Shown piece after piece: positions 1 to 4,364 of a stretch of DNA of 64,000 nucleotides (the first letter of the stretch is position 1; each line of letters starts with the position of its first letter). Location of the stretch: NCBI RefSeq assembly GCF_007833165.1, contig NZ_VOBQ01000017.1, positions 1-64,000 on the forward strand, read 5' to 3'. The DNA is from Caenimonas sedimenti. Its GTDB lineage: Bacteria; Pseudomonadota; Gammaproteobacteria; Burkholderiales; Burkholderiaceae_C. Under the pieces are notes generated by a model, which had not been told where the DNA came from, searched no databases, and was given only the letters and a program-made list of their open reading frames with translations. Both the position numbers and the translations under genes were made by a program.

Positions 1-86
1 GAGAACAGGGCTCATGCGTCGTTCCGGTCACGGGTCAAGACGGCCAGTCTTGACCCGCGCCCGCGCCTAGCCTGAGCCCTGTTCTC
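1..86. repeat. Nested palindromic element at the left edge
   Basis: A perfect 14-bp inverted repeat (GAGAACAGGGCTCA at 1-14, its complement at 73-86) encloses a second perfect hairpin: an 11-bp arm at 31-41, a 5-nt loop at 42-46 and the complementary arm at 47-57. Neither hairpin is followed by a T-run, so it is not a typical intrinsic terminator. The outer arm starts at base 1, so the element may extend beyond the window. It could be a MITE-like or REP-like repeat, or the end of an upstream transcription unit. No reading frame here looks coding. Confidence 0.6.
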
Positions 87-147
87 GGCCCAACGCAGGC
101 CCGTTTCTCTGCCGCCCAGGCTCCTAGCCAATCTCCGGCGGCCCTGG

Positions 148-153
148 GATACT
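148..153 (+). promoter_or_regulatory. -10-like GATACT 11 nt before the start of the 165 gene
   Basis: GATACT lies 11 nt before the ATG at 165, and no Shine-Dalgarno sequence is seen. Transcription would start near 160, giving an almost leaderless mRNA. No convincing -35 is visible. Confidence 0.3.
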
Positions 154-164
154 GGCGGCGTCGT

Positions 165-749
165 ATGTCGTCGCCCTCCACCGTCCCGCCGTCCCGCCTG
201 CCGCTCGACCCGGCGACGCACCTGCCCAGCATCCACACGTTTGGCGAGCTGAGCCAGTTCCTGCGCAGCGCCGTCGCCGACGAAGACAGCCGGCAGTTTT
301 CCGAAGGCATGACGCTGCTGGCGACCCACATCGAGGCGATCGTCGCGTGCCTGCGGCTGGACCGCAGCAGGGCGGCCGTGGCGCCGCTCCTGATGGACTT
401 CCTCACGGTCCTGCGTGACCACCGCACCATGGTGGTCGGCCTAGGGCTCGAATGGCGCGGCCTCTACGAGTACGCCTCGTACCTGCAGGCGCTGAACAAT
501 TTCCGGGTGCTGATCGGCCAGTGGCTGCTGCAGGGCGATGCCCGGGGCGCGCAGCTCCAGCTGGCGGCCGAGGATTTCGAGCTGGTGGCCTGGCGCACGC
601 TCGGCGAAGGCCTGCTGCTGATCGACATGTACGAGCAGCTGGTCCGCGATCCGCTCGATGGTGAGTTCGTCGTCACCCAGCCCTTCACCCGCGAGGAGGG
701 GCCGCAAGTCGAGCGCGCCTTGCAATGGTGGAAAAAGTTGCGGCTATGA
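165..749 (+). CDS. Conserved hypothetical protein (194 aa)
   Basis: I do not recognise this protein. It is predicted soluble, with no signal peptide or membrane segment, and looks largely alpha-helical. The N-terminal 20 residues are Pro/Ser-rich; the body is acidic and Leu-rich. It ends at 749, about 45 bases before the extended -10 of the aroG leader, so it is a separate unit from aroG. The ATG at 165 has no Shine-Dalgarno but is preceded by a -10-like hexamer at 148-153. Codon use matches the neighbours. The function is unknown. Confidence 0.75.
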   Translation: MSSPSTVPPSRLPLDPATHLPSIHTFGELSQFLRSAVADEDSRQFSEGMTLLATHIEAIVACLRLDRSRAAVAPLLMDFLTVLRDHRTMVVGLGLEWRGLYEYASYLQALNNFRVLIGQWLLQGDARGAQLQLAAEDFELVAWRTLGEGLLLIDMYEQLVRDPLDGEFVVTQPFTREEGPQVERALQWWKKLRL

Positions 750-790
750 GACACGCTCATGCTGCGGCGCAGCGAGCGCCTCAGGCCGTG

Positions 791-799
791 TGCTACATT
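791..799 (+). promoter_or_regulatory. Extended -10 promoter of the aroG attenuator
   Basis: TGCTACATT fits the extended -10 form TGnTAnnnT. No good -35 is seen, as is usual for extended -10 promoters. The predicted start of transcription is about 806, the first base of the leader-peptide ATG, so the leader could be translated as a leaderless message. Confidence 0.45.
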
Positions 800-805
800 G
801 CACCT

Positions 806-877
806 ATGCATTGCGTCGCGTCTTTCTTTTTTGGCTATTTTTGGTTCTCAAGCGCCCCCGGCGGAAGAGAGATCTGA
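806..877 (+). CDS. Aromatic leader peptide of the DAHP synthase attenuator (23 aa)
   Basis: A short frame from ATG 806 to TGA 875-877. Residues 6-15 read SFFFGYFWFS: five Phe, one Tyr and one Trp within nine codons (824-847). This density of regulatory codons is the hallmark of an attenuation leader peptide of the pheL/trpL kind. The stop codon lies just after attenuator region 2 (855-864), so a ribosome finishing the peptide would mask it. There is no Shine-Dalgarno; translation may be leaderless. The Phe excess suggests that Phe-tRNA charging is the main signal, with Tyr and Trp contributing. Confidence 0.8.
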   Translation: MHCVASFFFGYFWFSSAPGGREI

Positions 878-910
878 GCGTACCCAGAAGAAACGCAAGA
901 CCCTCGAACA

Positions 911-942
911 AACCGCCGGAACCCCCGGCGGTTTTTCTTTTT
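911..942 (+). terminator. Intrinsic terminator of the aroG attenuator
   Basis: A perfect 9-bp stem, AACCGCCGG (911-919) with CCGGCGGTT (925-933), has a 5-nt loop. Its last two T bases and the following 934-942 make a T-rich tract with a single C. It lies 31 nt before the aroG start codon. Confidence 0.9.
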
Positions 943-973
943 GGGCCCCTGAAACCGAGCACGAGGACAGTCC

Positions 974-2092
974 ATGACCGCCAAGACCCCCGCCAGCGAG
1001 ACCTGGTATGCGCATCCCATCGACAAGACCGGCCAGACCGATGACGAACGCATCAAGGACATCACCGTGCTCCCTCCGCCCGAACACCTGATCCGCTTCT
1101 TCCCCATCCAGGGGACGCCCGTCGAGACCCTGATCGGCCGCACCCGGCGGTCCATCCACGACATCATGGCCGGCAGCGACGACCGCATGCTGGTCGTCAT
1201 CGGCCCGTGCTCGATCCACGACCCCAACGCCGCGCTGGATTACGCGCGCCGCCTGAAGGAGGCGCGAGACAAATACGCCGACACGCTGGAAGTGGTGATG
1301 CGCGTGTACTTCGAGAAACCCCGGACCACCGTCGGCTGGAAGGGCCTCATCAACGACCCGTACCTCGACGAGAGCTTCCGCATCGACGAGGGGTTGCGCA
1401 TCGCGCGCCAGCTGCTGATCGAGATCAACCGCATCGGCCTGCCGGCCGGCAGCGAGTTCCTGGACGTGATCTCGCCGCAGTACATCGGCGACCTGATCGC
1501 ATGGGGCGCCATCGGCGCGCGCACCACCGAAAGCCAGGTGCACCGCGAGCTTGCCTCCGGCCTGTCCGCGCCGATCGGGTTCAAGAACGGCACGGACGGC
1601 AACATCAAGATCGCCACCGACGCGATCCAGGCCGCAGCCCGCCCGCACCACTTCCTGTCCGTGCACAAGAACGGGCAGGTCGCGATCGTCCAGACCCACG
1701 GCAACAAGGACTGCCACGTCATCCTGCGCGGCGGCAAGGCGCCGAATTACGACGCCGCCAGCGTGGGCGCCGCCTGTGCCGAGCTCGAAGCCGCCAAGCT
1801 GCCGGCCACGCTGATGGTGGATTGCAGCCATGCCAACAGCAGCAAGCAGCACGAAAGGCAGGTGGATGTGGCACGCGACATCGCGGCGCAGGTCGCCGCA
1901 GGCTCGCGCAGCGTGTTCGGCGTGATGATCGAGAGCCATCTCACCGGGGGCGCCCAGAAATTCAGCCCCGGCAAGGACGATCCGAAGGCCCTGGAATACG
2001 GCAAGAGCATCACCGACGCCTGCATCGGCTGGGGCGATTCGCTGGAGGTCCTGGACGTCCTGTCGAACGCGGTTCGGGCCCGGCGCCGCTAG
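974..2092 (+). CDS. aroG: 3-deoxy-7-phosphoheptulonate (DAHP) synthase, class I
   Basis: Condenses phosphoenolpyruvate with erythrose 4-phosphate, the first step of the shikimate pathway to Phe, Tyr and Trp. The 372-aa protein carries class I AroFGH motifs: GPCSIHDP with the metal-binding Cys (about residue 77), KPRTTVGWKG, GTDGNIKIATDAI and DCSHANSSK with a metal-ligand His. The length is slightly above E. coli AroG (350 aa). ATG 974 follows GAGGACAG. The upstream attenuator, rich in Phe codons, argues for control by aromatic amino-acid supply. Which aromatic acid inhibits the enzyme cannot be read from the sequence, so aroG is the closest symbol only. Confidence 0.92.
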   Translation: MTAKTPASETWYAHPIDKTGQTDDERIKDITVLPPPEHLIRFFPIQGTPVETLIGRTRRSIHDIMAGSDDRMLVVIGPCSIHDPNAALDYARRLKEARDKYADTLEVVMRVYFEKPRTTVGWKGLINDPYLDESFRIDEGLRIARQLLIEINRIGLPAGSEFLDVISPQYIGDLIAWGAIGARTTESQVHRELASGLSAPIGFKNGTDGNIKIATDAIQAAARPHHFLSVHKNGQVAIVQTHGNKDCHVILRGGKAPNYDAASVGAACAELEAAKLPATLMVDCSHANSSKQHERQVDVARDIAAQVAAGSRSVFGVMIESHLTGGAQKFSPGKDDPKALEYGKSITDACIGWGDSLEVLDVLSNAVRARRR

Positions 2093-2123
2093 TCGGAAGC
2101 TGGCCTCAAATCGGTAACAAGTA

Positions 2124-2152
2124 TTTACATGAAGTAACGATCTGTCTATATT
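2124..2152 (+). promoter_or_regulatory. Strong sigma-70 promoter of the first paralogue gene
   Basis: TTTACA (2124-2129), a 17-bp spacer and TATATT (2147-2152) are close to the sigma-70 consensus. Transcription would start near 2159, giving a leader of about 37 nt to ATG 2196. Confidence 0.7.
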
Positions 2153-2195
2153 TGTGGCGGGTGGGCCGCTGATCGGCCGAGGCAGGACACCAGCC

Positions 2196-3218
2196 ATGAA
2201 TATTGACCGTCCCACGTTGAGACTGGGAATTGCCGGGTTCGCCGCGGAGCAGCAACAGCAGGTGCAGGCCGCGCTCTCGGCGGCCGAGACCGCGGCTGTC
2301 GAATGGAAACTCGGGGGATTCGCGGAGGCGGACGCCTGGTGGCTGCATGGCGGCCGGACGCAGGCATTGCCCACGGGCATCTTGCGGGTCGCCCCGGGGC
2401 AGACCGCGGCGCGGGTCGTCCAGCTGACTCTCTCGGATGTCGACCGCCCCCTTGCTGTCTCCCTGCCCATGGCCGGGGGATTCCAGCCGACCTTCTTCTT
2501 CCGGCTCGAAGATCCCGCCAGCATGGCGGCGATCCTCAAGAAATTCGGCGCCTGGCTGCAGCCGGCAATGGCCCAGTACGCCCTGGCCGCGAGCATCGTG
2601 GAGAACGAGCCGGCCTTGGCGGCGGGCGCGTGGGAGGTCCTGCGGGGCTCCGACCTGATCGCGGTCGTCGATGTGCGCCTGGGCACCGCAGTGGCGCCGC
2701 AGGCCACGCCGCTCGACTTTGCCGACGCCACCTGGTGCATCCGTGACCATGGCGAAGCGAACCTGCCACGTGAATTCATCCAGGCCAGCCTGTCGCAGCT
2801 GATGTGGCAGTACGCGGCGCGCACCACCCGCGACCTGCTGCCCGCGCACTACCGTGACAAGGCGCTCTTTTTCCGGCGGCCGCCGCGGCTGGCCCAGCGC
2901 AAGATGGACGACGCGCACCTGCTGCTGCTGCGCGACCTCGCCGGGCACCCGGGCAGCCGGTTCGAGGAAGTGGGGCAGCGCACCGGCCTCGGCGAATCGA
3001 CCCTGGCGCGCCACCTGGCCGCGCTCTATCTCGTGGGTTCGATCACCGCGAACCCCAACCGGGCGGCCACCTGGCATTCGCGCCCGGCGGGCGACGCGTC
3101 CGACAGCGCGTTGCCAAGCGTGACGCCGTCCGGACTGGACGCGGCCTCCGGCCCGGGCGGACTGACGCCACAGCAGGCGCTGGACCTGACGGTTCCTGCA
3201 CCACTGTCGCCCGAATAG
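2196..3218 (+). CDS. Hypothetical protein, first of a tandem paralogous pair
   Basis: A 340-aa soluble protein of unknown function. It is clearly paralogous to the next gene (3333-4364). Shared blocks include AWWLHGGR versus GWWVNGSR, DVDRPLA versus EIDRPVA, and a C-terminal block W-x-Y-x-x-R-T-x-R-D-x-L-P-x-x-YR. The following 50 residues (HPGSRFEEVGQRTGLGESTL and on) look like a winged-helix fold with a recognition-helix-like segment. Both proteins end in a Ser/Thr/Gly/Pro-rich tail finishing DLTVPA or DVTVPA. ATG 2196 is preferred over GTG 2154 because AGGA lies 8 nt upstream and 2154 would fall almost on the -10 of the promoter. A DNA-binding or signalling role is possible but unproven. 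Confidence 0.75.
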   Translation: MNIDRPTLRLGIAGFAAEQQQQVQAALSAAETAAVEWKLGGFAEADAWWLHGGRTQALPTGILRVAPGQTAARVVQLTLSDVDRPLAVSLPMAGGFQPTFFFRLEDPASMAAILKKFGAWLQPAMAQYALAASIVENEPALAAGAWEVLRGSDLIAVVDVRLGTAVAPQATPLDFADATWCIRDHGEANLPREFIQASLSQLMWQYAARTTRDLLPAHYRDKALFFRRPPRLAQRKMDDAHLLLLRDLAGHPGSRFEEVGQRTGLGESTLARHLAALYLVGSITANPNRAATWHSRPAGDASDSALPSVTPSGLDAASGPGGLTPQQALDLTVPAPLSPE

Positions 3219-3332
3219 CACGGTCCCCCCAATTCCTTCGTCCCGGGGATGGCCCCGCGCGGCGAGGGGTTCCATAATCGGCGGCCACCCCAGCCGGGGC
3301 GGGCGCATTCCAAATTCAAATGACGGGGCTGC

Positions 3333-4364
3333 ATGTTGGCGGGGGGCGAGGATTTACGCGAGGAGCCGACGCTGTTGCTGGGCGCGACGGGGTTTTCGCC
3401 TGCGCAGCGCGAGGCCATCCAGGGGCTGCTCGCGCGCTTGCCTGGCACCGGGCCCGGCTGGTCGCTGGTGCCGTTCTCGGAAGCTGACGGCTGGTGGGTG
3501 AATGGCAGCCGCATCAAGCTGCTGCAGGATGGCAACCTCCGCGTCAAGGCCGGCCAGCCGACCGAACATGCGCTGCACCTGGACCTGGCGGAGATCGACC
3601 GGCCGGTCGCCTTCTGCGCCCCGCTGGCGGCGCCGGACTTCGAGCCGCTGTGCGTGTTCGACCTCGCCGATGAAGCATCGGTGCTTTCGGCGCTCGCCCA
3701 TTTCCATGACTGGTTGCGCGTGCTCCGCGCGCAGTTCGCGCTCGGCGCCATGGTGGTCCAGCGCGGGGCCAGCCTGCGCGGCACCGTCCACCACCTCATC
3801 CACCAGGGCAATCTGCTGGCCGTGCTCGACTACCGCAACGGCCACGCGGGCATCCATCCCGGGGCGGAGGCGGCCGACCTGTGGGAGGCGGAATGGGACA
3901 AGCGGCCGGCGAGCGCCGCCGAGCTGCCGCCCCGCTTCGTGGATTGCACGCCGGCGCAGCTGGTGTGGGCCTATGTGCGGCGCACCCGGCGCGACATGCT
4001 GCCGGAACGCTACCGCACGGAGACCATCTACTTCCGCCACGCCCCGCGCGTGCCGCTGCGGTGGCTGCGCGATTCCTTGCTGGCGGTGGTGCGCGAACTG
4101 AATTCGTTGCCAGCGTCCTTCCAGGAACTGCGCCAGCGCACCGGCATCTCCGAAGCGGTGCTCGCGCAGGACCTCGGCTGCATGTATTACGCAGGGGCCA
4201 TCACCACGACGGCCAGCAAGGCCGCGCCCACGGCGGGTGGGCGTGAAGGCGAAGCGTCCACGCCTTCGGAAGTGGGCCCGGCCAGCACCGCGCTCGCGAA
4301 GCCGCTCGACGTGACGGTGCCCGCGATGCTGGAGCACAAGCTCCGGCCGCGCGGGGGCAACTAG
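3333..4364 (+). CDS. Hypothetical protein, second of a tandem paralogous pair
   Basis: A 343-aa paralogue of the preceding protein with the same three-part layout: an N-terminal alpha/beta-like region starting LLLGATGFS, a central region with GNLLAVLDYRNG, and a C-terminal helical segment (SFQELRQRTGISEAVLAQDL) resembling a helix-turn-helix, then a low-complexity tail. A CATAAT hexamer at 3273-3278 could give it its own promoter. The stop codon lies inside CTAG (4361-4364), which also encodes the stop of the convergent mpl gene. Function unknown; the duplication suggests a lineage-specific regulator or adaptor family. Confidence 0.75.
   Translation: MLAGGEDLREEPTLLLGATGFSPAQREAIQGLLARLPGTGPGWSLVPFSEADGWWVNGSRIKLLQDGNLRVKAGQPTEHALHLDLAEIDRPVAFCAPLAAPDFEPLCVFDLADEASVLSALAHFHDWLRVLRAQFALGAMVVQRGASLRGTVHHLIHQGNLLAVLDYRNGHAGIHPGAEAADLWEAEWDKRPASAAELPPRFVDCTPAQLVWAYVRRTRRDMLPERYRTETIYFRHAPRVPLRWLRDSLLAVVRELNSLPASFQELRQRTGISEAVLAQDLGCMYYAGAITTTASKAAPTAGGREGEASTPSEVGPASTALAKPLDVTVPAMLEHKLRPRGGN

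Follow-up and report, generated by a model that had tools for sequence, protein, structure and literature searches.

The stretch analysed in this study, called the window here, comprises 64,000 nucleotides of the Burkholderiales bacterium Caenimonas sedimenti (contig NZ_VOBQ01000017.1, positions 1 to 64,000, forward strand). Near its start, a gene at 165-749 is followed by a short open reading frame (ORF), a hairpin, and a gene for a DAHP synthase of the AroFGH type with 372 amino acids (974-2092, forward strand). The motif GAGGA at 964-968 of the same strand is, from its sequence, the likely Shine-Dalgarno (SD) site of the synthase gene. The product of 974-2092 matches the NCBIfam model TIGR00034 (aroFGH) with 535 bits against a cut-off of 173.2, as well as the Pfam model PF00793. 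Its score for the narrower AroG equivalog NF006723 is 542.9, under the cut-off of 568; therefore, the name aroG is used loosely.

The short ORF occupies positions 806-877 of the forward strand, runs from ATG to TGA in 23 codons, and encodes MHCVASFFFGYFWFSSAPGGREI; it has no SD site and its translation is predicted to be leaderless. Codons 7-14 (824-847, forward strand), spelled TTC TTT TTT GGC TAT TTT TGG TTC, specify Phe Phe Phe Gly Tyr Phe Trp Phe and are the putative control codons. A preliminary description of this DNA had counted five Phe, one Tyr, and one Trp in nine codons; this composition is correct, and the block that holds it spans eight codons. An extended -10 element, TGCTACATT, lies at 791-799 on the forward strand and is followed by 6 nt and the ATG, and the predicted transcription start falls on the leader ATG or no more than about 2 nt from it. 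No -35 match was found at this promoter, and a consensus scan requiring a -35 element gave no promoter.

Downstream of the ORF, and on the same strand, lies an intrinsic terminator, formed by its left arm AAACCGCCGG (segment 3, 910-919) and by segment 4 (925-942), which combines the right arm CCGGCGGTTT (925-934) with the U-rich tail TTCTTTTT (935-942). The stem is a perfect 10-bp helix of 910-919 with 925-934, closed by a 5-nt loop, and this terminator is one of two terminator-like sites between 600 and 1200, where shuffled sequences lead one to expect 0.4. The right arm is repeated within the leader ORF, as CCCCCGGCGG at 855-864 is an identical copy of 922-931. The last part of this copy, CCGGCGG (segment 2, 858-864, forward strand), is the proposed antiterminator partner of 913-919. 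Two further motifs of the forward strand, GAGAG (867-871) and CCTC (902-905), are proposed to form a second antiterminator helix with each other (GAGAG with 902-905), a partnership based on the predicted fold of 858-921. The leader ORF, the terminator, the upstream repeat, and the extended -10 element, which the preliminary description had named, are all present in the window.

DAHP synthase loci were collected by protein similarity and comprised 80 named loci, 30 from 150 genomes of the family, and 41 further family loci. The family set of 71 loci, in which the window is included, was drawn from the 149 family genomes with a DAHP synthase match; its members were chosen by the synthase gene and blind to the leader, by score and by hand rather than at random. 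All 71 have an aromatic leader, starting with ATG in 70 and with GTG in one. The best window of 10 residues holds at least five aromatic residues in all 71 loci and at least six in 68, versus 30 and 2, respectively, of 1420 dinucleotide-shuffled controls. No aromatic leader was found in the reverse complements of the family loci (0/71) or upstream of the second type of DAHP synthase (0/13 regions, including that of the second copy in the same genome, L169), and one named Comamonadaceae locus, L027, fell below the threshold for such a leader.

The composition of the aromatic block was tallied without its first and last aromatic codons, in loci that had not been chosen for a leader. The 433 interior codons of the 71 family loci comprise 186 TTY, 1 TTR, 100 TAY, 62 TGG, and 5 TCN, with neither CTN nor TGY among them, whereas background triplets in the upstream regions of the same loci number 1625 for TTY and 603 for TTR. 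Set against this background, the near absence of TTR points to selection on the amino acids and not on U content. All 132 distinct leaders with at least six aromatic residues, one of which (L132) is probably a chance occurrence, contain both Phe and Tyr, and 116 contain Trp too. Across 69 loci, TTT makes up 59% (183/309) of the Phe codons in the leaders versus 14% (84/582) of those in the synthase genes, and slower decoding of the leader Phe codons would presumably sharpen the response.

R1, a covariance model built from 46 sequences of the complete element, matches 146 of the 150 family genomes, of which at least 27 contributed to the model. The four genomes without a match are 55-90% complete, and one of them (G055) is also without a DAHP synthase match. 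In the genome of C. sedimenti itself, the window is the sole strong match with 127.8 bits, the next one reaching 19.4 bits. Six family genomes have a second match, which covers the 3' part only in three and the full length in one (G029); the other two are G070 and G080. In a search of 200 genomes of the order with R1 at E up to 0.01, 59 (5 of them from the family) gave a match, which covers at least 128 bases of the element in 47 and its 3' part only in 12. The 30 best order-level matches, 25 of which come from other families, all have a DAHP synthase gene within the 3-kb locus, and in 29 a leader is found in the 300 nt upstream of it. Among 183 genomes searched in the class outside the order, two of one family (f62) have the element before a DAHP synthase gene. 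Among the named loci, carriers include Ramlibacter, Polaromonas, Variovorax, Acidovorax, Hydrogenophaga, Limnohabitans, Comamonas, Burkholderia, Caballeronia, Paraburkholderia, Massilia, Rugamonas, and Janthinobacterium.

Of the first 110 loci (80 named and 30 family), the leader detector found an ATG-started leader in 91. Three were missed but recognised by eye, namely L027 (a weaker leader in which Tyr, Phe, and Trp occur with His), L047 (GTG start), and L060 (broken frame), and the upstream region of L018 is cut off by a contig end. The other 15 loci without a leader include those of Cupriavidus (L037, L041), Polynucleobacter (L032-L034), Thauera, Azoarcus, and Dechloromonas. Outside the family, 13 leaders were judged real and two chance-like in 35 order-level loci (L112-L139, L170-L176), and one leader looks real in 29 class-level loci (L140-L168). 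Likely false positives of the detector are L061, L132, L141, L160, and L176. Two loci stand apart. Upstream of the DAHP synthase gene of 'Candidatus Burkholderia humilis' (L060), the frame is broken within the aromatic block and the hairpin is kept, which would fit either a decay of attenuation or an error in sequencing. In L075, which is binned as Anaerolineae, an aromatic leader (MSRYFSFFSWYGYFAAGQVERAVVRPRDV) precedes a DAHP synthase gene, together with a long inverted repeat that lacks a clear run of T; either an independent origin or a mis-binned contig would account for it.

An intrinsic terminator was detected in 124 of 151 leader loci, and the failure to detect one in the other 27 is in part due to an extrapolated gene start that cuts the region, as is visible for L053. 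The preliminary description had proposed that the upstream copy pairs with the left arm of the terminator, 855-864 with 911-919. The pairing holds for 858-864 with 913-919, where seven G-C pairs can form, and not for the full length first given. Exact pairing of segment 2 with segment 3 over 7 of 7 positions is found in 80 of the 124 loci versus 403 of 12400 shuffled leaders; among the other loci, six pairs are possible in 32 and five in 12. The distance from the ATG to segment 2 is 40-54 nt in 118 of the 124, and 32 nt in six, where the segment was probably mis-placed by the script.

The narrowed pairing is conserved, and compensatory changes are few. The state CCGACGG:CCGTCGG occurs in three loci (L103, L193, L220) and CTGGCGG:CCGCCAG in six, five of them Burkholderia-type, and each state, found in close relatives, may represent one event. 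For the helix of segments 2 and 3 in alignment A1, 88.2% of positions are paired versus 87.2% in shuffled alignments, and the covariation value is 0.046 versus 0.033. Further pair types are not above shuffles (186/500 reach the value), and a slide of +3 gives an equal number of two-sided pairs (2) and more cells of this kind (5 versus 3). The weakness of these statistics stems from the small number of variable columns. RNAalifold applied to whole alignments returned the terminator only, or a helix of four pairs for segments 2 and 3.

The GAGAG motif, which is absent from the preliminary description, was evaluated in 119 loci, that is, 121 distinct loci minus L003 and L221, which could not be placed. 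It lies 2-3 nt downstream of segment 2 in 101 of them, and within 12 nt of it in 104 (86, 10, and 8 in the three frames) versus 2.6% in shuffles. Its possible partners CUC, UUC, or CUU occur upstream of segment 3 in 93 of the 119 loci versus 30% of shuffles. In the predicted fold of 858-921, GAG at 867-869 pairs with CUC at 903-905 as a second helix inside the antiterminator. Folds predicted for all 119 loci contain the outer antiterminator helix in 98, and GAG is fully paired in 37 only; when the inner part was shuffled, the fold became less stable on average in 86%. The core of segment 2 occurs in all three reading frames across the loci (82, 34, and 3 of 119) and its sequence stays CCGGCGG-like. 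This indicates that segment 2 and GAGAG act as RNA, and that the peptide is free to vary there.

The alternative structures were compared in silico in the same 119 loci. When the RNA upstream of segment 2 was masked, to mimic a ribosome stalled on the aromatic codons, and segment 4 was not yet made, the probability of the pairing between segments 2 and 3 exceeded 0.5 in all 119, versus 48 in naked RNA, where the median was 0.11. When a ribosome was placed at the stop codon instead, the probability of the terminator exceeded 0.5 in all 119, and the terminator formed in 117 in full-length naked RNA. At equilibrium, with segment 4 present and the 5' part masked, the pairing of segments 2 and 3 exceeded 0.5 in 8 of the 119 only. 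Since the terminator wins at equilibrium even when the 5' part is masked, the switch must be kinetic, with the antiterminator forming first. The naked leader also competes for segment 2 more than leaders with a shuffled 5' part do (mean probability 0.41 versus 0.62, lower in 81 of 119), with a Wilcoxon P of 6e-8 for related sequences that are not independent. In the window, the last aromatic codon starts 13 nt upstream of segment 2, and this distance is 10, 12, or 13 nt in 93 of 124 loci; 13 nt is about the distance from the A site of a ribosome to its leading edge.

Taken together, the element at 806-942 is very probably a ribosome-mediated transcription attenuator, by which expression of the DAHP synthase would follow the supply of charged tRNA-Phe, tRNA-Tyr, and tRNA-Trp. 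The attenuator logic of the preliminary description is supported by the alternative pairings, the negative controls, and the conservation of the leader codons in relatives, seen both in the 71 family loci and in the model matches. From the elements, their conservation, and the alternative pairings, which are read from sequence, we infer the start site, the positions of the ribosome, the kinetics, and the response to starvation as follows. Transcription would start on the A of the leader ATG or beside it, as the promoter geometry suggests, and a ribosome would load on the leaderless 5' end. When an aromatic aminoacyl-tRNA is short, the ribosome would stall in 824-847 with its leading edge at or before about 857, so that segment 2 is left free and the competing leader RNA is covered. 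Before segment 4 is transcribed, segment 2 would then pair with 913-919 of segment 3, GAG:CUC would stack within this antiterminator, and the polymerase would read through into the synthase gene. When aromatic amino acids are plentiful, the ribosome would cross segment 2 to the stop codon (875-877) and sit between segments 2 and 3; segment 3 would be left to segment 4, the terminator would form, and transcription would end near 942. The model thus predicts read-through for a stalled ribosome, and mostly termination for finished or absent translation.

The position of the 5' end bears on how the leader is translated. Among 108 nonredundant loci with a detected leader, taken from the 71 family loci and 46 named top matches (L001-L045, L052), TGNTANNNT lies 4-9 nt upstream of the ATG in 98, versus 0.6% of shuffles, and in 100 a spacing of 6-8 nt separates the -10 hexamer from the ATG. 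A pyrimidine occupies position -1 in 94%, and the A of the ATG occupies position +1 in 99%. An SD-like site is found in none of the 108 leaders, whereas the synthase starts of these loci have one in 79. The suggestion in the preliminary description that the leader may be leaderless is strongly supported by this fixed spacing and by the lack of an SD site. One alternative would keep the attenuator and have the leader translated from a longer 5' untranslated region, with transcription starting well upstream of 790. Leaders of Burkholderia and Oxalobacteraceae lend it some weight, as they have a TATAAA or TATAGT box about 26-37 nt upstream of the ATG and no evident SD site, and a 5' untranslated region of this kind is tolerated there. 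However, the geometry described above is that of the family and its nearest relatives, and a scan of the C. sedimenti genome (5.9 Mb) for this geometry alone gave 12 sites. The aroG leader and a leader at leu are two of these; the total is at chance (15 sites for a reversed control pattern), so that only the identity of the two sites speaks. A longer untranslated region is therefore rather unlikely in the window.

Two other readings concern the element as a whole. The hairpin might simply terminate transcription of the gene at 165-749, the aromatic ORF having arisen by chance in U-rich sequence; this gene has the same orientation as the leader, which begins 56 nt after its end, and its homolog was found in 16 of 228 loci, the window included. 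However, a promoter-like site lies between the gene and the leader, the leader is present in many loci where no homolog was found (some of them with too little flank), and U-richness leaves the ratio of 186 Phe codons to one TTR in unselected loci unexplained. Since leader and hairpin are kept with the synthase gene and not with the upstream gene, and in view of the codon bias, this reading was rejected as hardly credible. According to another reading, the terminated leader RNA or the peptide works mainly elsewhere in the cell, in the manner of rnTrpL and peTrpL, and attenuation is secondary. Leaderless leader RNAs with functions in trans do exist (PMC7298713), and the element is conserved through the family. 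Yet the RNA motifs downstream of the aromatic block occur in three frames, so the peptide is not conserved as such there, and all 30 of the model matches that were fetched adjoin a DAHP synthase gene. A main role in trans is accordingly improbable, and an additional one beside attenuation could still exist.

Besides the attenuator before the synthase gene, leaders of related design were found at two other loci. The full-length second R1 match of G029 lies upstream of leuA and consists of TGTGCTATATT, 7 nt, and an ATG, with five consecutive Leu codons (L269:572-754). In the C. sedimenti genome, a leu leader on the minus strand (L350/L330, G000:C35, from about 131,921 downward) has TGATACATT, 8 nt, an ATG, the Leu/Ile-rich peptide MTRIALALLLSPHGRRR, and a terminator-like hairpin, and it is followed by a gene resembling 2-isopropylmalate synthase and then leuA. 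A leu leader of like design is present in 12 of 12 genomes of the genus fetched from 18 (C. sedimenti and 11 others, L331-L341). Upstream of trpE, TTGCTACACT or a variant lies 6-8 nt before a leader such as MFIHRTTITGCSDRGAWPWRKPVQVRS in all 16 genus loci with enough upstream sequence, C. sedimenti included (L321 and 15 of L310-L329). These leaders carry Trp-Pro-Trp, and that of C. sedimenti (L321, G000:C6), upstream of trpE at 132,501, starts with GTG. The hairpin downstream of the trpE leader, GCACGGGG...CCCGTGCCCC, is without a U run; therefore, its mode of action may differ from intrinsic termination. As at aroG, the antiterminator segment at leu probably lies inside the coding frame and upstream of the intrinsic terminator, which at leu is a terminator-like hairpin. 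Elsewhere in the genome (L346, G000:C13:265103), a leaderless-type promoter and an ORF of 16 codons are found just upstream of another ORF, the start of which presumably resembles an Lrp/AsnC-type regulator.

Attenuation in itself is well established. In E. coli, pheL-pheA and trpL-trpE operate by stall codons and alternative 2:3 and 3:4 hairpins, with termination when charged tRNA is plentiful; their leaders have an SD site, and segment 2 of trp lies downstream of the leader stop codon. Unlike these, the leader in the window has no SD site, and its segment 2 is part of the ORF and precedes the stop codon. The aroR-aroF attenuator of Corynebacterium glutamicum was reportedly described by Neshat et al. 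in 2014. The leader of C. glutamicum aroF has Phe-Tyr-Phe, and stalling of the ribosome under Phe limitation raises transcription (PMC4046766, PMC11802643), the latter also mentioning the attenuators of E. coli pheL-pheA and trpL-trpE. The likeness to the element in the window is one of role only, a leader peptide before a DAHP synthase gene; C. glutamicum is an actinobacterium and its attenuator is reported not to respond to Tyr, whereas here seven aromatic codons of three kinds are present. The remark in the preliminary description that an aromatic attenuator on aroG is less familiar is fair for betaproteobacteria, whereas the leader of C. glutamicum aroF was already known. For Shewanella, an attenuator on aroF is listed in one study (PMC2659441).

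The uORFC-13-1 motif upstream of Acholeplasma aroF also combines a predicted upstream ORF containing Phe with a terminator before a DAHP synthase gene; however, it occurs in Acholeplasma and environmental sequences only, has a ribosome-binding site, and differs in structure (PMC8632094). In Sinorhizobium meliloti, the leader ORF trpL is at the 5' end of the RNA, and attenuation before a biosynthetic gene is again joined to a leaderless leader, which in the window is predicted; this is an alphaproteobacterial Trp leader of trpE(G), for which an RNA (rnTrpL) and a peptide (peTrpL) that act in trans have been described (PMC7298713). A paper on transcription start sites in Burkholderia cenocepacia mentions leaderless transcripts, and its main text contains no aroG, leader peptide, or attenuat* (PMC4603805). 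Neither the element nor the leader peptide is matched by a model of Rfam, NCBIfam, or Pfam, and a cmscan of positions 1-4000 of the window for Rfam leader families, T-boxes, and riboswitches, with E up to 1, gave two unrelated matches far below their gathering scores. The literature searched holds no report of the element from betaproteobacteria, and one may exist since most subscription papers were outside this search. Overall, the kind of control is known, and the variant features are the predicted leaderless start, a peptide with all three aromatic residues, a segment 2 that falls within the reading frame, and GAGAG.

With aroG, leu, and trpE, three loci of one genome carry such leaders. 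It seems probable that leaderless peptides are a recurrent, SD-independent means of amino acid control in this group, and that the aroG leader responds jointly to Phe, Tyr, and Trp at the entry to the shikimate pathway; in this genome, no TyrR-type HTH_50 domain scores over the cut-off, one weak match being below it. With the -10 element fused to the leader start codon, the first ribosome would be on the RNA as soon as its 5' end leaves the polymerase. The leaderless design would make a clean experimental case of how a ribosome loaded directly on a 5'-terminal AUG stays in step with the polymerase, a question that SD-led attenuators such as that of E. coli trp leave unaddressed. For the family, the attenuator gives a testable account of how a large group of bacteria may control entry into the synthesis of aromatic amino acids.
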